Source of the DNA: Siphonodentalium dalli
Taxonomy: Eukaryota; Mollusca; Scaphopoda; Gadilida; Siphonodentaliidae
Reading direction: 5' to 3'
DNA length: 64,000 nt
NCBI GenBank assembly: GCA_032622095.1
Contig: CP136064.1
Coordinates: 47,319,573-47,383,572 of the forward strand
Positions within the stretch are counted from its first letter, which is position 1, and every line of letters begins with the position of its first letter. A program made the position numbers and the translations under genes. Shown piece by piece: positions 3,361 through 37,800 of the stretch. The notes under the pieces were generated by a model that saw only the letters and a list, made by a program, of their open reading frames with translations, was not told the DNA's origin and searched no databases.

Positions 3361-3525
3361 TCAAGTTCCCTCCTGGTTCGACACGGGTCTTCTCTTTTGA
3401 ACGATATCTTGTATCCTATCTGGAAGTTCCATGCCTTTTGTGTCGGGAAGAGCAAACGCAAGTAGACCAGATATGATACACGTCGCACCAAATATAATCA
3501 CAGGCAGATAATGTCCAAATTTAGA
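3361..3525 (-). CDS. SLC22-like gene, final coding exon (residues 483-536)
   Basis: Starts SKFGHYLPVIIFGATCIISG (helix 12) and continues FALPDTKGMELPDRIQDI, the family C-terminal LPET...LPxTI motif. It then has a short basic tail ending QEGT and TGA at 3361-3363. The acceptor is ATTTTGCAG, phase 0. There is no PDZ-binding-like terminus. Confidence 0.92.
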   Translation of the reverse strand, partial: SKFGHYLPVIIFGATCIISGLLAFALPDTKGMELPDRIQDIVQKRRPVSNQEGT

Positions 3526-4782
3526 CTGCAAAATAACAAAATTAGGTAAAGCTTTTTTTTCAAAGTCTATATTGAATTCACAGAGTAGTCGGAGTGTAAT
3601 TCATGCGATAAAAATAATCCCAATGCGGACATAAAGTCTTCCATAAACAAAAACAATGAAGCGTTATATATAATATTCGGCAATACGTCTAGTCAATCAG
3701 TCGCGGCCATCCAACCCGTTCCGTTTGTTTAGTGCTACAGGTCAAAGTTCTGGAGTAGCATTCCATATATGGAGCTTTTGAATTCCACATATGGAATGCC
3801 TACTCCATAACTTTGACCTGTAGCAATAAAAAACGGAACGGGACTGGATGGGTCCAAAATGGCCGCGACTCAGTGACGTATTGTTCCACCATGCAACTCT
3901 TTACAGAGTTACCAACGTTTGCATATGGTTTCCCGAAGAGGGACTATACATGTTAATATTTATAGAAGAACTAGTCACATGTTTCATAATATTATATCAT
4001 ACCAAGTGATTATTATTCTGCTTTCGGTAGGTCTTAATTGTCATACGTTCTTCTTCATTAAACCAAGCTTACTTTTGGGGACTATACGCCTTCTATCGTT
4101 ATTAGCTCGTCATCAAGAGATATATGGACAGTACTTACCAATAATAGAATCTGTGGAGCCAAAACACCACCAAGTCTATTGAAAAATGAACAGGCACCAA
4201 TTGACACACTCCTGAAAGCAAATCCACATTTTATTACACGTTCCATACGCATCTCGTTGACGTAAAATGACGTACTTCGCCTCAACCATGAAACCGGAAC
4301 TATAAAATAAAAGCATCATCACACATGACAAAACACACCCTCTATGTGCCTATAAATAAATCTTTATTTGTAATTTTGTATTTTTAATGCACGGATTCTA
4401 GGACGCGAAGCGTGTAATAATCACAGAAGCACGAGTGCCGTATCGACAAACCCATTTACACATCGTGTCCTTCTGTGTATATATGAAACGGGAACTGATT
4501 TACCATTGAACTATATATTCACACATACCATTCGATTTGCAGCATCTCTCGCCGAAAATACCACCCTTTGGCATGCCAGACCGCCTATCTGGCTGAAGCG
4601 TTGGTTTTGTCGTGAGGCTGCTGGTGTTTCACAAAATAAAAAGGAAGCGGACAGGATTGGTAGGAATACTTATCCACCTCCCATCCCTCTATATATATTA
4701 TACAGATAAAGCCCAATTGCTTGTTGATGCCTATTTTTCTATCTTACATTTATTCTCGTTGTATCCTACATAAACATAGGTT

Positions 4783-4818
<36 letters not shown>

Positions 4819-7800
4819 GGTTTAACGTCATTTTAGCAACAAAGACATATCACGACGAGGAGCAACAGATTATCAAAATCGTGTGAAGCAACTGTGATTA
4901 GAAATGACAGTGAATTAGACGAAAACAAAACAAAACTACGTAAACATAGGACCCTCCCGAAAAAAGCAACGTTTCAGACAGATAGCCGACCTTGCATGCC
5001 ATATATCGAACGGCATTGTCGAATGGTAGGTAGGATAATCTGACATATATACATATGGCTTACAATATCCAACGGGCAATATATCCGGCGATCAAAACAA
5101 GAAACGGCAAATCCAATATCCAACGGGCAATATATCCGGCGGACAAAACAAGAAACGGCAAACACACTATCCAACGGGCAATATATCCGGCGGACAAAAC
5201 AAGAAACGACAAACACACTATCCAACGGGCAATATATCCGGCGGACAAAACAAGAAACGGCAAACACACTATCCAACGGGCAATATATCCGGCGGACAAA
5301 ACAAGAAACGACAATACAATATCCAACGGGCAATATATCCGGCGGAAAAAAACAACAAATGGCAATTAAATACAATATCCAACGGGCAATATATCCGACG
5401 GACAAAACAAGAAACGCGAATACAATATCGAACGGGCAATATATCCGGCGGACAAAACAAGAAAAGGCTAATCTTATAATACAATATATATAATGTTTAA
5501 TGCGCTCAAATTAAATGCTCTTTTCAACTCACGGTATAACAAGATCTTGATAAACCTAGCTGCCTTCATAAAATATGCCCTTGTCAGACAAGGAACACCC
5601 CGAGGCTCATGATTGACACTATATATACATACCCCTTATTTTGGATGGCGCGGGCCACAGTGAAAACACATATAAAAAGCATACATCTGTCTTCAAATAG
5701 GTTCATATTGAACCTAGATATTCACATCTATTTGATTCTGAAATAGGCTCATATATATTTTTTATTTATTTAATCATATCAGGAATTTCCTGGTAAACAG
5801 ACCATAACGGTTATTAGAGCACAATCCCATTGTTGCAATCGTTCCCTGGTAGACTAACTAGGAATGCCCTTTATTATTGTTCGATATTCACATCTATAGT
5901 TTTCACTTTGGAAAATCTTTCTGTTAATTACATAAGCAACATAGTATATACAAAAGTATTTTACACATGTATTATCATGTTTTTATATTCAGAACGGGAC
6001 CATGATTGACCAAAATGCGAGCATAGTGTGGACTATTTTCACTGGAAAAATTAACAATCAACTATGATTTTCGAAAATTACAACCACATCGACTGTACCA
6101 TTTCAGAGAACACAACGTTTGAACTTATACACGAATGTAAATATTTACAACTTTATTCGGGACGAATTATTGGGCGATAAACAAACGGCAGTAATTCCAC
6201 CAACAAAGTCAAAGATCACGTGACTGCATGTAATTCATTTATAACAATGACGTCGTGTCAATTTGTATATAACAGTTAGGAAAATAAAACAATTTGCTTA
6301 TCCACTATGAAAACAAGCCTATTGGAGTGTTCGACATCACTTTAATGCGTGTGGACAATGAATTGTCCAGCCGCTTTATGGAGACGATAGCAGATCACAT
6401 TTAGATTGTGTTCTCATCATAATTATGTCTGCACTTAAAACATGGACAAATCGTTATAAATTCGTGCCCCATTCACGTTCATTTTGAGCGTAATTCAGAT
6501 TAAAATAACGCCAATATGGGCGTATTTGTTTTTTTTTAAATACGTTCAATATGAACCTATTTGCACGATGATACATTCGAAATCGTGTATAATAACAACT
6601 GTACCTTATTGAAGTTGGATATAGCTCACAAGTGAATGTCAGAATAATTTTTGCACGATGATACATTCGAAATCGTGTATAATAACAAATGTACCTTATT
6701 GAAGTTGGATATAGCTCACAAGTGAATGTCAGAATAATGCAAAATATTCCAGTCACAGCACACTTTCCAGCCATCGCCAATGAAGTTGCCAGCATTTCGA
6801 GATTAATCGGGAAATCTGAAAATGGAAGTCAGACAAATCCATCAAAGATGCCTCCGATTTGATAATAAATTGTCAAAATGTTCATTTCCCATTAACGGCA
6901 ACAAATTGAAAGTAATAAGACATCCCTATCTACGTGCTGATGAAGATAAAACAAAGGTATAAAAACAATTACAATTCGCCCTTTAATATTTACAGCCAGT
7001 TGACAAAGATATCATAAACGCTCTGTATCATATGCGATTTATTTGGGGCCTTGGGCGCCTGGCAAAAAAAGACAAAAGCAAGTAAAACTGCCTTTCATTA
7101 TCTATATTTGACCATCAAAACACCACATGATTCCTATTACATGATCAATCTGCAGTTTGTCGTGTAATTAAAACGTACACAGTAGCCTGTCATTTGTGAA
7201 AAAAATGGGTTTCGTAAAAGTTTTGGGGGATTTTGAGCAACATATTTTGTTTAAGCCCATATACTGGAGATATTGAAAACCAATATTGACAAGCTTCTTA
7301 TCGCTTAGTTGCCTCAAAAATGGTGTCACCATAGCAAATTTCTGAGAATTCTGGAAATTTACAATATATGAAGTATATTAGTGATAGCGGTGGACCTATT
7401 GGTGGATATAGTTATATAATAATATTTATATATATATTCTCCATGGCGGACCGCCATAGATCATGTCGTGAATCTCTACTCTGGCTACCGCCCGCAGAGA
7501 TCATATTCCACCAGTACAAAGCCTTGGATCTTTTTGAAGTTTTGACAGGGAACCTCATACAGTAAAAAAATAACGCGGGGAATATATTTATTATCTGTTC
7601 CTTAATGTTTGTGAAGGTCCCAACTCAAAATTTCACCATTTAAGTGACTTTGTGAGCGATTTTGCTTCGCGTCGCTTGCAATTATGGAATTTCTCCTGGG
7701 TAATTAATTCAATGTTTGTTGCGATATCGGCTCACAAAAGGCACGGAAAAGCATGCAATTTCGAGTTGTGACATTCACTTACAGCGAAGTACATTATTAA

Positions 7801-10800: not shown

Positions 10801-13800
10801 TTGTCAAATGTGTTTCCTTTGTTATATAAACAAAAGCAAAAAACGTTGCAGAACCTGGCTTTTGTTTAGATCCGGATGTGGTAAACATAAAGAGCGTTAT
10901 TTCTTACTGTTTTCCTGATATGGAAATAATAAAGAGCGTTTATATCATGTGTGTGTGATTAACCAATAGAATTGCGCTGTGTTATGTAAACAGAAGCAAA
11001 ACTTCTGTAACACGAGCAGGCTCTGGTACGTACACCATCGTACGTCTTGACGACAAGATACTATTTAAGCGCTGATTGTGTTTGGCATATGAACAAAACT
11101 ATATATATTTTAATATTCCTTCTGTTGATGGCGATTTGAACAAATATTAATATTTCTGCAACGAACGCCGCCCGTGCCTTTAACGAATTTCGTGGGGGGG
11201 GGTCGATGGTTCCCATATAGGGGTCACCCTGGCGATCCATATAAGGTTTGGTGATGATCGGATGAAGGATGCGGCCTGTTGGGTGAGTCAAAGGAAATTG
11301 TTGACGGACGGACGACGGATGCCAACCCACGGCAATAGCTCAAACTTTACAAAGTAAAGTTGAGCTAAAAAAGAGAGAACATGCTTGCGTAGTAAGCTTC
11401 AACTATAACTTATTCAAATTGAACATAAATGTCAAAAAAATGTAATAAGTATTCAGTTACGTGCATGAACTTCTGCTATCACGAAATAGCCATCTGGATA
11501 GATATGTAACAATAAAATCCAATTCATTCGCACCTTTTTGGTCTGTTGGAATGACCCCGGCTGCAACACAAGTGACCCCAGACACAAAGAAGAAAGCAAT
11601 CTGTGTTCTCTTACAACCAAACCTGAAAGCAGTCGCACACAACGGGTAATATATATCATATATGTGCATGCACGTGTTCTCAAATCTGCCTGGCAAATTT
11701 ACAGGCAATCCGTCCCAGAGGGCTGCAGTATAGTATACTAGGATATGACGGAATTAAACGGACATGGCTCATTCGAACCTCCAAATGTTTTTTTTTATAC
11801 ATAATTTGGAGCGACGGATCCATACGATAGGGGGATAAATAAACGAACTATTGACACACCGGCTTCATATGCTCTGAAAAACACATACCGATGTCACAGC
11901 AATTTTTCAGCCGTTTTCAACTTTTCGCCAGAAGTCAGGAAAACGCTCTTTATTGCTACAATATCAGGAATATACTACCACGGAACGCTCTTTTCTGTTC
12001 CATTTCGTGCAAAAATGCCTGTTTTGTGTTTGGGATCCGAACAGCGTATTTACAGTTGTATTTTTCATTACTTTTTTCGTTACTTCAATGCGTCTGTTTG
12101 GGTTACATAATGTTCGTAGAAGGAAGTTAAGATATTTTTTGACATATTTCGATACTTAGAAAAATTCAAAAGCGAATATTATGTGTATTTTGGAGCGCAA
12201 ACCGCCATATGGCTATAACTTAACCCGGATTCCGGACCCACTTTAAAAAAATGCTTTAAACAGGGGGGTGGGGTAGTAAACAATTCGCAGGAAGGTATGC
12301 CGTTTTTTTTTTGCATCTGGCATTTTCGGGGACCCACCATGTGCACCACCAAACCTGCACACAAAAAAAATTTAGTCCCAATTTTTTGACACCCAACCCC
12401 CAAATTTCACTAAAATTGGTCTAAAATCGCATAAAACTCTACTGATATCACTCATATGACTGGGAATTATCTCAATTAGTTCAAATAACAGTTTAACCTG
12501 TTTCAGAAGCTGTTTTAATTGAAAAAAAAATGTTTTATAAATTGCTGATCATCTGTAAACCTAGGTCATTGTGCAGAATACACAAAATTTCATAATTTCT
12601 AACTATTTCCTGATTAGTCTGTCAACCAGCCCATTATCTAACATATTCCATACCGCTTATATATTATGTTAGTCTATTGGAGCAACTTACTCCTGTTATA
12701 CTAAACTAGCTGAAACAGTCTGCCTTTGGGAACCTATATTCAGCATCGGAAATATATGTGGCCCCATTTGTGGGACTTCGCAAACATTTTGATCTTAGAC
12801 AGAGCCTTCATTTAGCGGCGGCCCATTTGTGTGCTTCAAGCACATTTGGTCATTGACATTAAAACATTTTGATATATATATTGTTTTAATATATTGTTTT
12901 TAAAGATTGAATTCCGTGCTCAATTTAACAAAACAAATTATATATTTTTTTTTTTTAATTAAAATTTTTGAAAAACTAACATGATTAGAACATCCGCCAG
13001 GGTAACCCGAGTCACCACACCAAATTTGGTTGAACTCGGTCCAGGGGTCTGAGAGAGAAATCCGGACAGATCCTACTCATTTATATATAGATGGCAGGCA
13101 GTCACAGAACTATACCAGACTTGGATACTGTTCGGTCTTGTGAGAGATCATCTGAGTTGAAAGACATGCAAATAATTCACTGATTGGCTTGATGCACTGA
13201 TGACAGATATTTTATACCCATTGTTAGTCACATTAATGTTTGAGACAGTTGCTCGCTCTTTGTACATGCACACAATGATCTAGGCATTAGTTACATCAGG
13301 ACAAGTTTACTTATATATGTAAACTTAGGTCATTGTACAGGATACACACAATTCCATAATTTCTAACCATTTCCCGATGAGTCTGTCAACCAGCCCATTA
13401 TCTAAAATTATGCCTTAACACTTTTGTTAGTCAACTGGAGCAACCTCTGTTATAATAAATGACAAACAGTCACTATGCCAGACTTGGATATTTTAGGTGT
13501 TGTGAGAGTAACAGATCATATGAGTTGATAGACATGCAAATATTTCACTGATTGGCTTGATGCACTGATGAACAGTGTGATGACAGTTATATTCTAGCCA
13601 TTGGTAGTCACATTAATGTTTGAGACAGTTGCTCGCTCTTTTTCCATGCCACAATGATCTTGGCTTTAGTTACATCAAGACAAGTTTATTTATTTCAGTT
13701 TTCATTTCTCGAATCTACTTTCCGAAGGGTGTCGAGAAGGATTTTGTTCACCCCATCGCCCCATATATGCAACATGCCGCATAGCTCAATGTCATCTCTA

Positions 13801-16800
13801 CTAAGGCCCATGTGAGGTCCCAGTACCATAAATATGGTGTTTTTGCAGTTATAAATTCTTATAATATGTTTTAAACTGTTACAAAAGGTCTTTATTTCCC
13901 CACTTTGAAAATGATTGAAATTGCTATATATAGGGCCAAAGTTGGTGTCTTTCATGGGATCGCAGTCAGGCTTTCCAGTAAGGGCCGCCTCGACTTGAGA
14001 CAGTCCTATACCCTTCTTGTACTTTCTATCCTGATGGCAAATAAAATAAGACCCCATGTAGCACTGAGTATCATATTATTGTGCTTTGTCATGTGGAACT
14101 ACCTAAACTTGTCGGAATCATTACTTAGAATTAGGGATTTGAGCACACAGAAAAGTGTGTCAATGCCAAAAAACGTTTAAAATATTCCCATTTCCAATTC
14201 AAATTGTACGGTCTTATGTATGACAGTGATACTGGCTGGGGCCATGTCTATGCTCTTACTACTTGCGGGTGATGTGGAAACTCACCCAGGGCCACTTAAC
14301 ACAACTAATACCGAACCCAATTGTTCTTTCATGCTTCTCAATACTCAGAGTATACGTCGTAAAATTGACACTATTGCCGCCGAAACGACTGAAGGCAAAT
14401 ATGATTTCTGTTTATTCACCGAAACCTGGCTTAGTCGATCTATACCCGACAGCGATATCAAACTTCCTGGATACCATGACCCTCTACGCCATGATAGGGA
14501 CGATGGAAGAACAGGGGGTGGGGTTTGTATATATGTGCGCGACTCGATTCCATTCCACATCAGAAATTACCTCTTTTCCCCAGACATTGAAGCATTATGG
14601 ATAGATGCCACGGTTAAGAAAAAAAGGTTATTAATCGGCTGTTTCTATAGACCACCAAACACACCCGTGAGTATATGGAAAAAAATTGACAAGAGTATAA
14701 CAGTTGCACGCGATGAAGACCTTGACATTGTAATAGGTGGCGATTTTAATGAAAACTATTTTGTAGACGGTAATGGAAAAATTAATGAACTCTGCAGCGA
14801 GCGGGGATTTACCCAACTAGTTAGCGACAAAACCATTATACGGAGAGGACATCAACCACGTTAGATCTTTTCTTGACAAATAATAAGAGTATTATTGAAT
14901 CTTGTAATGTACATGGAAACTTTTTCGACAATACCGTGAGATACCACTGTCCGGTTGTCCTGCGACTAACTCTAGAAACGTTTAATACATCAACAACTCT
15001 AATGCGAAAGATATGGAATTATAATATGGCGAATTACAATGATATGAATAAAACTGTTAGCGATTGGAATTATAAGGAGCCTTGCAACTCCCTAGTTTCA
15101 AAACATGTTGAAATCTTAACAGATAAACTGATTACGACATGCCGAGAATATATCCCGAACAAAAATGTGATCGTCCGTAAGGGACTACCACCCTGGCTTA
15201 CATGCAATATCCGAAAAATAATGAGACAAAGGAATAGACTACATAGGTTAGCTAAAGGAAAGAATACTCCACACGCGTGGGTAAACTTTAAAAACAAACG
15301 TAACGAGGTAATTTCAGCTATTCGAAAAAGCAAGAGACAATTTGATAGCAAAAATGAAAAGCTGCTCAATGATCATACAACTGACCAATCATCCTGGTGG
15401 AAAACACTCCAGAGCTATCTCTTTTCTAATGATAGTAGATCTATTCCCCCCGATCGCGTCAAATGGCGAATTCCTTATCTCATCAACTGACAAAGCCAAC
15501 GCATTTAATACATACTTCTCTACTATTTCGTCAGTTGATGATACTGGGAAGAGCCTACCCCAATCCGTACCTGACCCTGACCGCCCACAAATATCTTTTA
15601 TAAAACTTACATCTGTCGACGTGTATACCGCACTGAGGGGCCTCAAGGTGGCAAAATCCAGCGGACCAGACTGTGTAAGCCCAAAAGTCCTGAAGAATTG
15701 TGCATCATCATTGTGTGAACCATTATCATTGTATTTCAATTCTTTTATCAAGAATAGCTATTATCCACCAGAATGGAAAATATCAAATGTCACGCCGATA
15801 TTTAAAACTGGTGATACCAGTCTTGTGAACAACTACCGCCCAATCTCTCTTTTGAGCTGTGTATCAAAAGTATTCGAGAAGTGCATTCACAAATATCTCT
15901 CGGAATTTCTTAAAGAAAACAATATATTATCTAATTATCAATCGGGGTTTATGAAGGGTGACTCAACTGTATTCCAGCTAACAGACATATACGATTACAT
16001 AAGCATTTCTTTAAACGAGGGTAAAGTAGTCCGATGCATATTTTGTGATATCAGCAAAGCATTCGATAAGGTCTGGCACCTGGGACTAATCCATAAACTC
16101 GAAAAAGTCGGAGTATCTGGGAATTTGCTTAACCTCATCAAATCATACCTTGCTAACAGGAAGCAGAGAGTAGGGATTGGAGGAAGTTTTTCCGAATGGC
16201 AACAAGTAACCGCCGGTGTACCCCAGGGATATATGCTTGGCCCTCTTTTATTTTTGGTCTACATACACGATATTGCAGTAAACATAACAAGTAACATCCG
16301 CCTCTTTGCCGATGATACCTCAATATACCTGACAGTTGAAAGTCCTGCGCTAGCCGCTAATGTACTAAATGATGACCTATATACGCTCGATCAATGGTAA
16401 AAAAAATGGCTTGTCGAGTTCAATCCACTAAAAACCGAATCAATGTTAATAGCAAGAAAGGATACAGACGTCCACCACCCCCACTAACTATGGGAACTAC
16501 CACCTTATTCGAAGTTCCTTTTCATAAACACCTCGGACTTATCTTCAATAACCGAGGTACGTGGTGCACACACATCCGCATCACGATCGAAAAGGCATGG
16601 AAACGGGTTAATCTAGTTAGGAAACACAGATTTACATTGAACCGAAAAACACTGGAAAGAATATACTTTGCCTATGTAAGACCAGTGCTTGAATATGCAT
16701 CACCAGTATGGGATAATTGTCCTAATTATCTCAGCAATGATATAGAGAAAATACAATTTGAAATGGCAAGGATCGTTACTGGAGCGACGAACAGTGCCAG

Positions 16801-19800
16801 TAAAGAGAGCCTACTATTAGATACTGGTTGGGAGACCCTGGCATCAAGGAGGAAAAAACAAAAGCTTATACAATTCCACAAAATAGTTAATAGTACAGCA
16901 CCCGTGTACCTACGAAATTATATTTGTCACTCTGAAAACCAAACCGGTTATAATCTTAGACATCATGCAATACGACTACCATTGGACGCCACAAAGGATA
17001 TTTATAAAGATACATTTTTACCCTCTACAATAAGCGATTGGAATAGACTGCCAGAGTGTGTAAAAAATTGTACCAACCTGGACAAGTTTAAAGAGTCACT
17101 TGCTGACGATCGTATATACACACATCCATACTACTATCATTGCCATAGTCGCAAATCCCAAGTATACCACACACGATTGAGACTGAAATGTAGTAATTTG
17201 AACTTCGACCTCATGACCAATTTTGTTAGTCCCGACCCATATTGTGCATGCGGTGCTGTTGAAACAGCCCATCATTACCTGTTAGAATGCCATTTATACC
17301 AGGCATCAAGATTGGAATTGCTATCATCTCTACCAAACATAATATTATCAGAAAGAACCCTACTCGAGGGTTCACCCGAAAGTTCCATTAGGGAAAATCA
17401 TAGTATTTTCGAGGCCGCACAAAGATACATAATTAGTACAAAACGATTCTAAACGTAATACTATGTCACATGTCTTCTGCCATTGAGTCATATATAAAGT
17501 CATATATACATAATGTCATAATTCGGAAAGCCTGACTGCCCATCTAACTCATGTAGTCTATGTACGCCAAGTTATACACAATTGACATATAATTCTACAG
17601 CCGAATGTTAAACTACCCCGCCCCTATTGACCATCCTATCTTTCTGACCTTTCTTAAACATAACTACTCTCCTTTCGTCCCATTGGTTACCTTTAATTCC
17701 CTAATCACACCCCACTCCAGTTCTTATCTTATCTCTTGTTATCTGTTGTTGAGTGCGATCTATATCAAAATCACCAATAAGTTATTTAAAGTACAAACCA
17801 GAAAAATTCCCGTCTGACACGCCCGAACGGCCTTGTGTAGTTCGGAAAATTTAAGCGATCTGGGAGAGGACTTACAAAAAAGCCACAATAGGCTTGTTGT
17901 CTCATCCCTTTCCAATCACCCATACTTATCCATTAGCATTTTTGTAAAATATTCATCTTGTTTTGTATTGGGAATAAATATTGTTTACACCAAAAGGTCT
18001 TTAGTAAAAAATGTGCATGAGGGTGTAAAAAACGCGTTTTTTGCCCCTCGGGCCACCCACCACCCCGGCATACCTTCCTGTAAATGTTTTACTACCCCCC
18101 CCCCCCCTGCTTGCTTTAAATCATTATTATGTGGCATATTCGCATTATATCACCGCTATGTGTGATCACACATTGCTATTTAACAGGTTGCAGTCATATA
18201 CGGTTAACAAATGTTGCCATATATCATGTCATGAATCTCTACTCCACTAAGTCCGTATACGGCGTATAGAGATCATATTCGACCAGTACAAAACCTGGGA
18301 ACTTTTTCATGTTGTGACAGGGAAGTGTATAACATTAAAAAAACAGGGCAGGTAATATAGTTCTTATAGTTATTACCTGTTCCTTAATATTCTTCACTGT
18401 AGGTGAAGGTCCCAACTCGAAATTGTACGATTTAAGTTTGTGAGCAATTTTGCTTTGCGTGGAATTTCTCCCAGGTAAATAATTCAATTTTTATTGGAAT
18501 ATCTGTTCACACAAGTCACAGACACTTATGCAGTATCGAGCTGGGACCACCCTAAGGCGAAATAGATTATTGAGGAACAAGTATATAATAACACATAATG
18601 TATTCCCTGCCATATGATATCTACGCTGCCACATTTGAAGGGCGAATAGCGTCTGAAGAAAACGCCGGTTATGCAGTAGTGTGTAGGCTCTACTATCATA
18701 GCATACATGTATATACCGAGATGAATGTGGAACGTATGTACAAGACATCTAGCTTGAGTTTCCGCATACGAATCCGGGTTTTTTCTCGATTAGTAATCGG
18801 TGACTGGGGTCCAGGTTTACGGAACTTAGTGTTGATTCACGGTATATTATGGAGGTCTCAATACTATCCCTCTCTCCGTGTACCTCCTTGTCATTCTGAA
18901 TATCACTTTATATATCCCTCCGTCCCATTCACTCGTTCCTCCAAACGAAAATAATTCCGAACGTACAATTATTGTATACGACATTTTCCTCCAATTCTTG
19001 GACACGAATCCGAGTTTTTCGTGATTAATTATAATCGTGGACTGGGGTCATCGTCGTCAATGCGCTTAATGTTGATTCATGGTAACCATGGTTAAAAACG
19101 TGCGCACAAGTTGATGACGTAGTAGTGCTATAAACGTAGTCGTAACTATCCGTGAGATTTTCGAAATATCTCTTTTATATATTACAGTCAATGACATTTA
19201 TTAAATAAATGTACTCCAACTTGAAGGTTCCATTTCCATAAGACGCCGAAAACTAAACACTTCCGGCCAATCCAAAGACTGATCTGCCAAAGATCGTTAA
19301 TTCGATTTTACCTGACGTCCTAATTCAAAATTAAATTCCTATAGTCCATATGGGAGGATCGATTTTATAAACGGAATCGTTCACACATTCACTTACCTTT
19401 TCATTGCGAATGCTGCTACGATGAATGAGGGGACTTCCAGCAACCCTGCGACAAAGAAGTTGAAATATTTATCCCCAGCGAAGGAAGTGAGCTTCAAAGT
19501 CAGCCCAAAATACCCAGCAGAGATACCGAACCTGTAAGGAAATATAAATTTAACCCTCACCTGCCTCCCCCCCCCCCCCCCCCGCCAATAAAATGAGAGG
19601 GATATGGCGTTTTCCGTAGATTGTATAATGAAGTCAAGACCTCACTTGATATTGACTATACTATTCACAATACAATCCGGCCGTTTCAGTTACTTAGCGT
19701 ACGTTCACACTGCCGAATTTTCTTGACAATTTTCAGGCAATTCAGTTCAAAGGTATGTGGGGTAATGTGGATATGAACGAATTTTTTTATTATAAATTGT

Positions 19801-22800
19801 ATGTAAACAAATGTTTACTAAACAAGATCTTCGTGATTACAACTTATTTTTATATAAGTTCATGCATAGCTCTAAAACAGATTCAAACATCGAAGTCATA
19901 TACTCGGTTGAGAAGCATGTCACACAATGCATACATCTAGGATGATTTAAATGCCTGGCAAATTGTGAACATGCATGGCCTTGTAATGATATAGTTATTT
20001 AATTATATATGATAGCTGAAACGGGCTGGCTGCGGCCTCTTAGTGCTATGGTACGTTCCGCACATTTTGATCAGGCAGATTGCGTCCATTCTTATGTCTT
20101 CATAAGTTCTGCAGTTTTACTTGTTATCATGTTAATTTGTCAGATATCCCAGAAGAGTCATCGCGATGCGAAGAGTCATACTTCCTTTCTGACTCTGTGA
20201 CCGGCTTGGTACTGGTTTGTAGTTTTCTATATTTAGCGCGGGTTTTTCCAGCCAAAATGGCGAAACCGATCGCCTCAAAGTCAAATTTCCTATGTGCTCT
20301 GAAAACAATTCCTTCACTAACATCTAATTGACAAAATGGAGAATTAGAGCAGTAGTCTTGTTGAAGATTTTCGCACGCTACTCAGCAAAATGGCAGCAAA
20401 TTAGAACTCGAATGTCTGACTTAACTGATGTTTACCATGCATGTTGTAGTCCATGTGCGTTTAGACTTTTGTGTCGCTAAATAATCGGAGAACCAGATCA
20501 CACCCTTTTGCGATATAGTTCTTTGGTTCTAGTGGGACTTTTCCAACATGTGGCCCTGTTCGCTTAGTATAAATATTAATATCACGGAAGTCCACAAAGG
20601 GAGATAAACCATGCATGGATTTTGGCGAAGCGGGGTGATACAATCAGTTTTGTGGTCAAATTTGACGATACACGCTGATGCGCCATGTATTTAAATCTTT
20701 TGTAATTTGACTTTTATAATTTGACTAATTTGTACTTTGAATGCAGATATTTGTTTCAGACACTAACTATAATAGTCCAGTTCCTTGTGATATAATTCAT
20801 CCACCAGAAAACTCGTTGACATATTTTCTTGTTTTCTTATTTAAGCTTTTCAGTTCTCTATCTGTTTCAGCTCAAATCATAACTATAATTGGTACATTGT
20901 AGGTAGCCATTCCATGTCTCTTTCGTCATTAGAATAACATGATTTGAACGACTTTATCCAGTTCGCCTGTGTTTATAAATATGAGGATTCTGAAAGTCTG
21001 AGATGGATACACAATTTAGCGTGGTTTATTCGTGAATTGTACCACAAAACGACGTCGAAATTTCCATGGGAACACAGACTATACTGACCAACCAGGACGA
21101 GCATATCATTCAGTTTTCGACAAGGTCGTATAAGAGTTATGCTTACCACGAGAGGAATAAGATCATGGATCTCTTTCTCAGTTCCGGGTGCCTCAACAGA
21201 TCTAATACAAGGATTTCACCACAAGCTGTCTTTGTCTTGTGAGTGTCTTGATCTTCGTCACCACCGGAATTCAACATTTCAGTCTTGTCTCTCATATCTT
21301 TATATTTTCTAGCTCGCATGTGCTTCCATAACACTGATTCTGGAATCACACTGAAATGGTTCCATACAATATTAAGATGGCGCCGCCGAGTTGGCTTGTA
21401 TTAGCAATCATAACCAATAACCATGACATTTATCTCGAAAACTAAATATTTCATAAGTAAAAGTTACATCCTCAAACTAGTTGTTTCTTTGAAAATCTAA
21501 TTCACTTAAATATACGGGCGGCGTTGACGGTGGGTATGCTGTTAAAATATTCAGCTCCGTCAAAAACCGCCATAAACAGAAATAATAGTAAAATATAGAC
21601 AGACCTTGTTCTTATATCAATAAGAAATATGACATAAACGGTATGTTATTGTCAAATGTTTTCCTTTGTTATGTAAACAAAAGCAAAATTCGTTACAGAA
21701 CCTGGCTTTTGTTTAGATCCGGATATGGTAAACATAAAGAGTGTTATTTGTTACTGTTTTCCTGATATGGAAATAATAAAGAGCGTTTATATCATGTATG
21801 TGTGATTGACCAATAGAATTGCGCTGTGTTATGTAAACAGAAGCACAACTTCTGTAACACGAGCAGGCTCTTGTTTATGTACACCATCGTACGTCTTGAC
21901 GACAATATACTATTTGCGCGCTGATTATGGTTGGCATATGAGCAAAACTATATATATTTTAATATTCCTTCTGTTGATGGCGATTTGAACAAATATGAAT
22001 ATTTCTGCAACGAACGCCGCCCGTGCCTTTAACGAACGCGAGCATTTGATTTGGTCAAGTAATATAATTTAATAAGCTCAAAGTAAACTTTTAGTGAATT
22101 TATTTTAATAATATTACATTATTGCTGCGACCCATTCTTCATTGCATCACCACACAAGATCGGGATGACATTTGGTTTGTAATTTCAAAAATGGTACTGT
22201 CTGGAATTTGAGACACATCTTCCAAAAATACTTTTCAAGACAAGAACCCTTTGTACAGCAAAATGAATTTATTTGAAACAATAAACAAATGAGTGTACCA
22301 GATAACAATATTAGCGTTCAGTTTTCGTGAATTTCCGAGATATCCAGCTAAACATCTCAACTTTAGTTTTCAGAAATATTTTCTGCTCAAAAACATGTCA
22401 CATAATTGTCATGGATTATCTCGTTTGAAATTAAACAGTACCTACATGTATTATTTAGAAAAGATGTCTTAGGTATAGTTTACTATAAATGCGAATTTGT
22501 TACCTTAAGTATGTATATAATTTAATATTAATTCAGTTCTTGCTGGAAGAAACTGATATTTCTACAATTGTGAACAATTGCCATCTTATTTTATCTTAAA
22601 GCGATATGTTCTCATTCACAAGTCTGGCCAATTGGACATGTATATATCATGTGATGGGGCATGCAACGCAATTCTGTTTCAAAATGATCATAATTTTTAT
22701 CAGTGTTATTTGCCTGGTTATTGACAAATACGAACTTTTGTGCGATGATCAGAGAGAGAGGGAGAGAGATAGAGAGGGCGCTAAAATAAATACATGCAAC

Positions 22801-28800: not shown

Positions 28801-31800
28801 AGGGACTTGACGACAGGGGTGTCTCGCCCCCCCCCCCAACTTTGGTCAAATGTTCAACTGTTGGAAATGTGATATACCTGACACAACATTTGTTGGAAAT
28901 TTCACACCAACAATAGGTTGAAATTGTTCTCGTAGTTTGATTTTCCAAAACATTATTACTGGAGAATTTGTAGTTTTTAGACCAACATTTGCATATTTTC
29001 CTAGTATTAGTAAACAAATTGGACTGAAATGGCTATCAGAAACTGTTGGGGGGGGTGTCAGGTCTCAAAATTTACAACAATTGGAAAGCTTGATGCCAGT
29101 CTGGGTGCTAGGATTTAGCAAATTTCATGTTCAGATTTCAAAAATTTCTCACACCGGGCCAAACCATGGTCGATCCGGTGTGTCCCGGTCCCTCCCCAGT
29201 GGCCAGTCAGAAACTGATAATTAATTTAAGAAAAAACAAATCTGGGTGAGTTTGCATGGCGTTAGACCACTGGATATTAGGATTTTTCAGGCTCAGATCT
29301 ACACATTTTCTTGTACTGAATGGTCGACCCAGTTGATTAACCCCCCCCCCCCCCCGATTAGTGACAAAAAGACTACTGATTTATTTAGAAGATGCTAACC
29401 ATCCAGGAGATTGTGAGGGACCAGTTGGGAAAAATCAAAGCTCAACCGGGGGGGGGGTGCAAATGGAATTACGCGCAAACTTGTGAATTTGATATGGTTC
29501 AAGGGGTGTAGTTAGACATTCGAAGGTGGACACCCCTCCTTACGCGGAGACCATATATAGTCACGTCCCTGCAATGGGTCGAGACTGTGTCTATAGCGCT
29601 ATCTACTCACTCTATTAACGACAACCTGTCATTAATGCGTGAACAAATTGTCAGTGAAATGATCGGCCTTCCGTATTTATCTAAGTGCTAGAAGCCGCCT
29701 CGAGAATTTGAACATAAAACCTGGCTTAAAATGACAACTTTATCAATGATGTTTGCTCATGACATCTTGCAATAGATAGGTTAACGCATAGCTGACTGGA
29801 ATTTCATGTAATTCATGAACCTTTGAGTGAGGAAATCGTAGTGAAAGGTTACCGGTCAACAGGACACATCTACCCGTTCCAAATCGCTATCGCTTTATGA
29901 GCTGCTTTGAAAGTACACAAGAGACGATATTCACCGATTTACCCGTACCCGTTCCCGTCGGACGGGTATCGCAAACTCGCTACTGTTGCATAAATTTCAC
30001 TTAAAATGTTTTTCAAAAAATATAGTTTATTCATCATCTTTATTTATTAATCTTGCGGGGCTTCTTCAATTATTCAATCTCATACCGGGTGACTATATGG
30101 TCTTTTTGAAGGGGGTGTTTAATTTCCAACAGCATCACCACTTTCACCAAAATCCCCAACTCAACGAAACTTCATTTACATCCCTTGATTTTCCTCAAAA
30201 CTTTCCAATTGTCGGAAATTCCTATCTAACACCCTCCCTATAGCCATTCAAGCATAACATTTTGACTGAAAATAGGAACATAGTAAAATCGTTGTTTAAA
30301 AACAACTTGTTTTACATTATATATCGTTGGTCAGAGAGTTAATCTATCATAACAATGTCGAACTCTGTTCAATCTGTAATTCCGTCTGCTGTTGACTCAG
30401 CCATGACATTTCTAACTGTTGAACATTTTGACTGAGTCGCCCCCCCCCCCCCCACACAACCCCCGGTATTTCGGTATATTATTTACCACGTGTAGAAAAC
30501 AGCAACCGAGGATGGCACTGATATCAACAGCTGCATTTGTCTCCAATCACGCAGAAAATAAGCCACGCCTCCCATGGATGCCGAGCTCACGCCCCAGCAC
30601 GTGTTCATGAGGCCCACAATAAGGCCTCGATGTTTGTTCGGAGCCAGTTCTAACGCCAACACTTCCATCGATGTCTGTATTCCCTGAAACGTTTGTTTGT
30701 CACGTGAGATCTACATAAGGCGTTATGCGCGACGCGTTTTCTACGTATGACGTTGGTTGGTTCCTTTGTAACGTGCACACACCTAATAAAACAAATAACG
30801 ACGACAAATGCACAGCTTCGCCGAGGTTTATACAATCAGGGGACCTGAATAAGAATAACATAAACTTGCTGAGGCATTCACATGACATGATTGTGTCGCG
30901 AGCACCACAGACGCAAGAATGGCGCAATCATAAACTCGCTGAGGCATTCACATTACATGATTGTATCGCGAGCACCACAGACGCAAGAATGGCGCAATCA
31001 TATAGTTGGGTTTCGCGTGTCGTGCGATTATATATGGAGACTGTCGAAGATACCGTAAATGCGTCGACCCTGAATTAAGGCTGCGTGGGTACACATTGTG
31101 GTCGCATCATGTTCATTTCTGATTGAAAAGTTTGCGCATCGTCCAACATATATATATGGGTCGGCACACGAATTGACACATTTCGCGTAATGAACTACTA
31201 CTGATAAAAATTACTAACAGGGTACTATACATCACTCGAATTTGAGTTCTTTCTATCGGTTGTCGTTTTTGCCATGTCCGTAGTTAAGATTGCGGTTTAG
31301 AGAAGTCAAGCGTGGACACACGAGCTTTGACTGCGATCATCGAGCATACATATGGACGCGTTCCTAGCGCTCAGCCTCCCTACGCTAAGGCGCAACGTTA
31401 CGTCGTGGAGTGAGTGAGCGGAGTGTCTAAGCCAAGTACGAGACTAGCATACTGACTGTCCTGATAACAACATAATTAAGTACAAAATAATCAAGGCAAA
31501 CAGAACCGTGGACATCACATTACTGCGTGCGTTTTTTACAAACGGACTCGTAGTCGTCAATTCTGCTAAATGTGTTTTTTGGACTGTCGGAAAAATTTAC
31601 TAATTATTAGCTATTCGTAATTCTTATCAGTAGTAGTTCATTTTGCGAAAGGTGTCCATTATCTAAGCCTGATGATGAATTTGACCTGTTCATGTGTGAT
31701 ATAGGTTAGACACCAAGCCGATATCACTCTGTATAACGTGCCCACACCTAATATAACTAATAATTAGTCGCAAACGATTTCGCAGAATTGACGACTATAC

Positions 31801-34800: not shown

Positions 34801-37800
34801 GTGCTCACCTTTGGGTGAATTACACCAAACGTTGTTTTAATAAGTTAACAGTATGTTTTAATAATGCATATAGGAAGTTAATGGGATATGAAAGAGCGTG
34901 CAGTGCCAGTGGAATGTTTACAGAATGTGTTCGATTTCAGTGTTAGTGCGCAAGGGTGTGTATGGGTTCCGAGAGAGAACGTCTAATTCTACAAATAAGA
35001 TACTATATGCCATTTATAATTCTGATTTGTTATTCAGCTCATACTTATTTCGTCATTGGAATAATCTACTTTATATGTAATCTTTAATATAATCTCTATT
35101 ATAATGTTACATATGCATGCTAAATTGTGATATAATATATGGGCGCTTTATGCCTGATTCAAAATAAATAATAATAATAATAGTGTATGTATGATGTGGA
35201 CATCCCACGGAAATATATAGTCTCACGCGCTCGACCTTGTCGAAACTTACCTGTATAAGAATTCCAATGACGAATCGAAGAACCATGAATGTTGTCATGT
35301 TTGGACTGAATGCCACCACCGTCCCGATAATAGACTGTCCCAGTAACGAAGCCACGAACACCCTCTTCCGGCCAAACATGTCAGACAAGTAGCCGAGTAA
35401 AGGTCCACCAATCATAACGCCGAAGAAATATATGCTCGTTGCCAGACTGGGTAAGTAGGCATCTTCACAAACCAGTCCCCACTGTAGAATCGAAGATGAA
35501 ATAATAAACTCCTCAACCGTTTTTATTTAGAAAAATTAAACCTGATCATTGGTCGCATTATATGTATAACGGTATTTCTATATAATACACATGATCTTAT
35601 GCGCTCGTGTGATAAATGAATTTTTATATTGATAAAGTGTAGATACAATTAGCACTCTACGCATAGTTAAAGATGCCATGTTCGATTTTACACCATGAAC
35701 CACCATCTGCGTGCACGTTTTCTATACCAGAAGCTAACTATAGATGGGCCTGTTCCAGGTGGGACTAAGGTATACATGTATATTCAACATGTTAATCCAA
35801 TACAGAATTGACCGGAAAATGTACGAATATAAGCTCGATCTAAGTAAAAGCTCGAAAAAGGAGGGATAACTCCACAAAATAAATGTTGGACATACTTCAT
35901 AATCGCAGGAGCACATGTTCCCATGGTACTAATTATCTGTGCTAATGACTGAAAACTGTAGGAATAAAAGCTCGGACAATCTGATTCCATTATACCCCCT
36001 ACAAATAAGATCGGAGCCACGAGCGGATTAATGTTAGGTTTAGATGGACAGATATCGACTGTCAAAAAGAGGAATTTACAACGCGTTTTGAATGTTTGTC
36101 AGTCTGGCAAAATAAAACAATTCGAATGATCGCTTGTTAAAAAGAGCATCCATGCATGGTCCAAACAATCGGTAGATAATAAAGTGCGTTCTCAATTATG
36201 AGCTTTTGTGATTATTTGCGATGTATTAAAGGTACTCAATCCGATTCGATGATCCCCATCTAATCAGATTCCAAGTAAAACAAGAATTATATGTAGAAAA
36301 ATATTGCTAACCACTGTCAACTATAGTATAAAATTGCACGAAAGGTGTTATTTATCAACATGTTGTTCGACAAAATTTGGCCTTATTATCGACAAAAAGC
36401 CTTTTGATTTTAGAGTTATCCATCTTCATCCGCAATTTGGTACGAGACCGTCGTCTCGTCGACTTTTTACTGGGCCACTAATAAGTCTCGATGGTGAAAA
36501 AATAATAGATTTCAAAAATCGGTATCTAATAACTATGAGCTTTGATAGGTGGGTTCCTCGACTCGAATGGAATATTTTTTACACCCGAATCCAAATAAAT
36601 AGTAATTAAGGAGCTCTTAATCGAATTATGCATCTTTAAGCCTACTTGTTTGTGATTTTGTGGATTGTCGATGATTGTGCGATATGAATGATGGCGATTG
36701 CTACTATTTTTTTTCATTTTCTTTTTCCTGGTATAAGCGGAAAATATTCTGAATTATTTGGTCAAATCGGGTATCATTGAGGGTCAGTGTGATGTAGAAA
36801 ATTACGCCATACTGACACATCGCTGATTGTACTCTACCTGGAGTGGACAGCGCTAGCATAACCTTCCTGTCATCCGGACCGACATTGTTGAATCAACTAC
36901 TGTTGGGTTTAAACATACACACAAAAAAACCGAAGTGCTAAACCTATCCTTTAGAGTGCTGTATATCACACTTAACAAGTGCTCGAATAGGGACAGCACC
37001 CGAAGTGCGCGGACAACACTTATTCAGGTGCTAAACATATAGCACTTACCAAGTTTTACATTGCAGCACCCGAAGTGTAATACTACTGCACCTGGGGATA
37101 TGTAGAGATGCACTTACAAGTGTAGAAATAACACCTTATGACTACCTTGGTCCCGATTTGGAAATGTCTGAAGCACACTTTACCTCTTTCTTAAAACACT
37201 TCTTAGTCCAATACTCACTGCATTCAACATTCAATACTCACCAAAGTGATCCAAAGTGAAATAATGTTGTTTTTGTTGAAAAATTGTTGAAAGAAGCTGG
37301 TCGTCACAGTCACTTTCACTTCAGTTGATCAAAATGGCGACCAGTTGACCGCGTGGAAAAAACTTTATCTGTGATTGAGTCTCAGACTAGTGACGTCGAA
37401 TCTAGTGACGTCCAATCAAAATGGTCCTTGTCCGAAACGATGAGTCCGTAGAAGTGTTGGAAATTCAGCACTTTGCGAGGTGCTACCGAAAACGCATTAC
37501 ACCTGACGTAAGGCTCTTTTGAGTACACTTCAGGTGTGAAAATGGCACCTGTACTGCCGAAATCAGTGTAACACTTGCCAAGTGTAAGAATACAGCACTT
37601 GAGTTTTTTGCGTGTATTTTAATAGTATATTCATATACAGAGACTATATTAGGGGATTGGAAGACAAGTTCTTGAAACTTAGATAGACCTCCGCTCCCCA
37701 CAATACAGAATAAGTATAACAAATGTAAACAGTATTTTAAACAGGATATGTTTGACATGACGGGTCCATGAATACAATAATAATTTGAATATGAATAAAT

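Follow-up and report, generated by a model that had tools for sequence, protein, structure and literature searches.

The nearest described case found for the duplication reported here is the RdRp gene of potato, in which the acceptor side was tandemly duplicated and a new intron arose; genomic and RNA reads confirm this (PMC4974935). The gene considered here is an SLC22-like transporter gene of the scaphopod Siphonodentalium dalli, encoded on the minus strand of a 64,000-nt stretch of contig CP136064.1 (positions 47,319,573 to 47,383,572). This whole stretch is called the window and its positions are counted from its first base. Both genes carry a short tandem duplication over an exon-intron border by which a splice site was copied. 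In the potato gene the acceptor was copied and an intron gained, whereas in the window gene the donor of intron 7 was copied and no good new acceptor was seen by eye. A paralogue of the window gene (locus L014) in which an acceptor was copied is a nearer parallel to the potato case, yet its upstream AG has been lost. A search of openly licensed papers matched no described case of a duplicated donor, which is no proof of absence from print. Small duplications of this kind also lie at exon borders of other members of the family in this genome; the present one is therefore most probably an accident that the gene tolerates, and a new protein form is unlikely to come from it.

Two other described systems are close. 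The first is intron gain by duplication of AGGT (the ATP2A2 test of Hellsten 2011, as cited in PMC4974935). AGGT is likewise present inside the window unit. The model requires that the unit be exonic and that an acceptor be usable, whereas in the window gene the beginning of a pre-existing intron is part of the unit. The second is the use of alternative 5′ splice sites with noncanonical U1 registers (Roca 2012 and Tan 2016, as cited in PMC12527174 and PMC8283771); according to PMC12527174, endogenous U1 makes use of bulged registers. The downstream donor of the window gene similarly pairs better with one bulged base. The difference from these cases is that the window gene offers two near-identical candidate donors that differ at one base.

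Anatomy of the duplicated border

Repeats were detected with Tandem Repeats Finder and with an ungapped repeat search. The former gives a tandem repeat at 6560-6738 (period 90, 2.0 copies, score 351). The latter gives two head-to-tail 89-nt copies (6560-6648 and 6650-6738), identical at 88/89 positions and spaced by 90. The periodic run of 179 nt is made up of the 89 repeated bases of each copy and a single extra A at 6649, the copy junction. By this extra base the copy spacing becomes a multiple of three, and the reading frame hangs on it. Each copy, read on the minus strand, includes 44 coding bases of the end of exon 7, an AAG/GT border and 45 intronic bases. The upstream copy in gene order (6649..6738, minus strand, junction A at 6649 included) carries donor a, AAG/GTACATTT, with its GT at 6694-6693. 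The downstream copy (6560..6648, minus strand) carries the same exonic bases and donor b, AAG/GTACAGTT, with its GT at 6604-6603. Their sole difference is donor position +6 (GTACAT upstream, GTACAG downstream).

A preliminary description of this locus had given 6604 and 6694 for the donors, 4211 for the start of exon 8 and +6 as the only difference between the copies, all of which are correct. Its 90-bp unit is right for the spacing; the unit itself has 89 bases, to which one junction A is added. It had assigned the last 36 coding bases of exon 7 to the unit, and 44 were found. The recent origin that it proposed agrees with the near-identity of the copies: given one difference per 89 bases, the duplication is judged to have arisen recently, within an age range that is wide with a single event. 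Its interpretation is partly supported: both donors are plausible, while competition between them and a polymorphic copy number are possibilities. A 180-base query had a single match in the 2.23-Gb genome (one search; a missing match is no proof of absence), and occurrence of the unit elsewhere is rejected as far as this search reaches.

Five paralogues (L014, L015, L062, L063, L064) share a phase-2 donor at one and the same arginine codon, which is equivalent to the upstream donor of the window gene. The following exon starts at the matching residue in L014, L015 and L062; it was not located in L063 and L064. Because the donor is at the same codon and phase in these five paralogues, intron 7 is taken to be older than the duplication, with the upstream donor at the shared place, and the birth of intron 7 from this duplication is ruled out. 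The AGGT model supposes that the intron was absent beforehand; for intron 7 itself, as distinct from an additional 90-nt intron considered below, the same-codon donor in five paralogues and the next exon in three indicate the opposite. Intron 7 is absent in L009, L010 and L011, and the exon runs through its site in 11 loci (L068-L078). The best-scoring paralogue is 39% identical over the C-terminal query; single-exon matches are 24-51% identical and short pieces up to 56%.

The short form of exon 7 (6695..6815, minus strand, 121 nt) ends at the position seen in the five paralogues. The long form (6605..6815, minus strand, 211 nt), made if donor b is used, adds YICYYTRFRMYHRAKIILTFTCELYPTSIR. 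Exon 8 (4139..4211, minus strand) is the acceptor partner common to both donors. The arrangement is that of a candidate pair of alternative 5′ splice sites, two donors having one acceptor and each giving an open frame. The inter-donor stretch has 90 nt, i.e. 30 codons without stop, and both frames are intact, as had been described. The insert repeats the motif ELYPTSIR (E-x-x-P-T-x-x-R); the repetition had been correctly noticed and the motif misspelt as E-x-x-PT-x-R. The long form has lower Pfam scores than the short form (MFS_1, 114.3 vs 124.8 bits; Sugar_tr, 90.3 vs 99.2 bits; cut-offs 33.4 and 22.3, both passed by the short form). Its alignment with SLC22A3 splits into residues 127-458 and 473-559, with overlapping target ranges, which would be expected of a partly repeated helix end.

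The repeat itself is no product of chance. The openness of the insert was compared with that of 20,000 single-base shuffles and of 2,193 real intron-7 stretches, all of equal length. The shuffles stay open in 27.6% of cases and the real stretches in 976/2,193 (44.5%). After a factor of 1/3 for length, an insert that is both open and in frame has a chance of ~9-15%, i.e. is mildly unlikely. Because of this chance, and because only one of the three donor duplications seen in the gene family is in frame, the open insert is no sign of selection.

Donor use and competing explanations

The explanation that we favour, with moderate confidence, is a recent and mostly neutral duplication, tolerated since the normal protein can still be made from the upstream donor. 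A small tandem duplication arose at the exon 7/intron 7 border of an SLC22-like gene that is intact in other respects. The upstream donor would most likely keep making the normal 536-residue protein, the second copy being carried as intron; the expected fate of the downstream donor is decay of the kind seen in paralogue L062. Some transcript, in minor amount, may add 30 residues after ELYPTSIR. Main use of the upstream donor, which we infer from sequence features, is rather probable. That donor is favoured because of its paralogue-shared position, its +6 T, the decay seen in L062 and the frame in L081 (both described below). The acceptor-side duplication of L014, the ordinary rate of such duplications and the lower profile scores of the long form also speak for the explanation as a whole. 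Position +6 is T in 16, C in 4, A in 2 and G in 1 of 23 SLC22/MFS-like donors of this genome, a tally from which both exon 7 donors of the window gene, the downstream copies in L081 and one unclear exon-8 donor of L062 were omitted. At the intron 7 donor of the paralogues it is T in 4/5 and G in 0/5.

Several points weigh against this explanation. Both donors are weak and lack a +5 G. The U1 duplex energy, computed without pseudouridine and protein effects, is slightly better for the downstream donor (-6.8 vs -5.6 kcal/mol upstream), because bulging of the +4 C lets +6 G and +7 T pair, in an 8-pair duplex. Intron-proximal donors are often preferred, and this would favour the downstream one. 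The ancestral status of the +6 T is taken from distant paralogues (~35-54% identity over aligned exons). The frame has been kept although neutrality does not require it. The remaining donors read in this genome have U1 energies of -5.3 to -12.1 kcal/mol; both exon 7 donors are therefore in the usable range.

Appreciable use of both donors, with proteins of 536 and 566 residues and a +6 change that balances two near-identical sites via the bulged U1 register, is the next explanation to be weighed and is considered unlikely. It would account for the frame that is open across both donors over exactly 30 codons, for the two energies, which fall among those of the other donors, and it agrees with the endogenous use of bulged U1 registers cited above. 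However, the insert interrupts a conserved junction between profile-matched segments, an open in-frame insert has the chance of ~9-15% given above, and the other two donor duplications of the family (L062, L081) keep no frame. A broader proposal has splice borders repeatedly duplicated in this genome and kept as a natural competition series; at this locus the +6 base would shift downstream U1 pairing to a bulged register and so balance the donors, giving a second transporter form with an insert derived partly from a transposon-like repeat end. This proposal is regarded as improbable.

Equally doubtful is a dominance of the downstream donor, by which the 30-residue insert would damage the protein and the gene would be heading for loss. 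The downstream site is indeed intron-proximal with the better U1 duplex, and profile scores drop with the insert; all nine exons are open, however, and no other lesion was found, though the duplication is too young for lesions. An assembly error that created the second copy is very improbable: the copies are nearly identical, as such an error would have them, but they have one internal difference and an extra junction base, and the 180-nt stretch lies within a 299-Mb contig and has a single genomic match. In a last explanation the duplicated AGGT creates an additional 90-nt intron, or allows recursive splicing: the upstream GT would be spliced to the AG that immediately precedes the downstream GT, which would in turn serve as donor. 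The mRNA would be that of the short form. This is held to be very unlikely; by eye, the candidate acceptor CTATATCCAACTTCAATAAG has an A at -3 and no pyrimidine run.

Dispersed repeat, break site and host gene

The start of a dispersed repeat was located at 6538..6578 (minus strand) by a repeat search and a comparison of copies; the duplicated unit takes in its first ~19 bases. A 401-base query gave 531 candidates, of which 40 were scored; 39/40 are confined to the region near the downstream end. At the start of the repeat, 16/23 copies read have a variant of CAACATATCCTCATGC followed by AAATAGG, a share that is biased, the copies being among the best matches; of these 16, all but L017 (15 copies) were used in the comparison. 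The window has GAATGTATCATCGTGC at the repeat start, with a 13/16 match to the nearest copy. Matches as good as this occur at 7/63,984 window positions on that strand, the repeat start itself included. About 19 bases of the repeat end thus appear to be in both copies, and since they lie within both, the repeat is taken to predate the duplication. A 25-nt near-palindrome (6562-6538) begins at the end of the unit. The duplication probably originated by local template switching or end joining, because the break lies a few bases into the repeat, beside the palindrome, with an extra base at the junction. Two other features lie inside intron 7: a stretch (5695-5713) that matches, in inverted orientation, the repeat end found ~0.85 kb away at 6562, and eight copies of a 51-base unit (5061-5472).

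The exons of the host gene were located by direct sequence reading and with an intronless SLC22-like frame of 550 residues (L011) as guide. This guide (L011/L038, G000:C6:108.673 Mb) is an SLC22-like gene with one open frame and no introns. The window gene has nine exons with GT-AG borders and is open throughout; it would encode 536 aa, or 566 aa via the downstream donor. Besides exons 7 and 8, the exons on the minus strand are: exon 1, 39147..39542, beginning at the first ATG of its open frame; exon 2, 35251..35481; exon 3, 30487..30683; exon 4, 21147..21350; exon 5, 19397..19531; exon 6, 11534..11622; and exon 9, 3362..3525, the last base of the stop codon being at 3361. A full-protein match at 11370-11627 extends beyond exon 6 and is taken as a chance extension. 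A 70-base tandem duplication (95% matches) is found at 30859-31002, upstream of exon 3. A peptide encoded at 15783-15908 (plus strand) resembles, by eye, a fragment of what we take to be a non-long-terminal-repeat reverse transcriptase.

The gene is predicted to encode an SLC22-like transporter of the MFS, with organic-ion transport as a possible activity. The short form has TIGR00898 (2A0119, cation transport protein) as the top of 52 families, with 348.7 bits over 10-505 of 506 positions. This score does not reach the curated cut-off of 550.75, and the gene is therefore named SLC22-like. Of 33 PDB sequences matched by the long form, the top 26 carry the labels SLC22, OCT1, OCT2, URAT1 or organic cation/carnitine transporter 2, and its closest solved relatives are SLC22A3 and SLC22A6. 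The window protein is thus like the SLC22 transporters in its match over nearly the whole profile and in its solved relatives; it differs in its score below the cut-off. The SLC22-like assignment made in the preliminary description is supported.

Splice-border duplications in the gene family

Three further SLC22/MFS-like exons have border duplications; one duplicated splice site has been lost in 2/3 of them. L062:4643-4731 (G000:C4:215.154 Mb), a close paralogue, has just past its donor an older and decayed tandem copy of the exon-7 end (34/39 identical, spacing 50). Its second copy has lost the donor, and an in-frame stop is found immediately after the first donor. This copy was first spotted by eye; L062 belongs to the C4:215-Mb gene that gives some of the best single-exon matches. 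L081:717-982 (G000:C1:100.455 Mb) has an SLC22-like exon end and donor in a tandem array with a ~76-base unit (spacings 70-76). It includes four GTGAGTAT donors (GTGAGT) at 753, 829, 905 and 975; stops interrupt all exon ends but the first, which is open. L014:574-658 (G000:C1:81.927 Mb) has a duplicated acceptor and exon-7 start (spacing 57), and the upstream AG has been lost.

The frequency of such duplications was estimated from 56 exon hits, or 54 after pairing of L011 with L038 and of L061 with L080. Loci corresponding to repeats of the window gene or of another locus (L001, L005, L006, L008, L012, L013, L036, L037, L039-L042, L044, L055, L067) and repeat-family loci (L002-L004, L016-L035) were dropped. 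With an identity of only 24-30%, some of the hits may represent other MFS genes. Local duplications overlap 4/54 exons (window exon 7, L062, L014, L081). The background is 40/600 for random 126-base intervals in the same sequences (~half from the window), 37/503 for window tiles and 42/480 for P450 flank intervals. Enrichment at SLC22/MFS-like exons overall is rejected (4/54 vs 40/600, binomial P = 0.49); the small size of the exon sample and its lack of length matching to the random intervals add to the points against the explanation favoured above. Most exon hits exceed 126 bases, so that the exon rate may even be low. By this rough comparison, duplications at exon borders are about as frequent as elsewhere or less so. 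Exon-7 copies that have intron 7 carry a duplication in 3/6 cases vs 1/48 for other exons (Fisher 0.003), a split chosen after seeing the data and in which exon 7 of L062, previously already a weak match, came into the count via its own peptide once its duplication was known. An exon 7 hot spot is not claimed from this contrast. With three other exons of the family affected and a rate near the genomic background, the special character that the preliminary description implied for the window duplication is weakened.

None of 240 P450 coding intervals is touched by a local duplication. They were drawn from 20 intronless P450 genes, with 12 draws per region at 20 loci, so that the draws are not independent; being single-frame genes, these loci served as background and not as a second splice-site family. 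All 20 of these loci (L084-L103) are single open frames of 510-592 residues; the other 73 P450 matches are mostly partial, as expected for multi-exon genes. The 0/240 count fits the idea that exon edges absorb duplications, within samples that are small and non-independent.

The window duplication is thus one of several at splice borders within a single gene family of this genome, which apparently have decayed to different degrees. The two exon 7 donors of the window gene have their 44 exonic bases in common, as well as 44 of the 45 intronic bases; they differ in their order and in one base. This pair could be used to measure proximity against the +6 base and bulged U1 pairing, little else varying. 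Taken with L062, where a donor has been lost, with the four donors of L081 and with the copied acceptor of L014, it belongs to a small series on the fates of duplicated splice sites.
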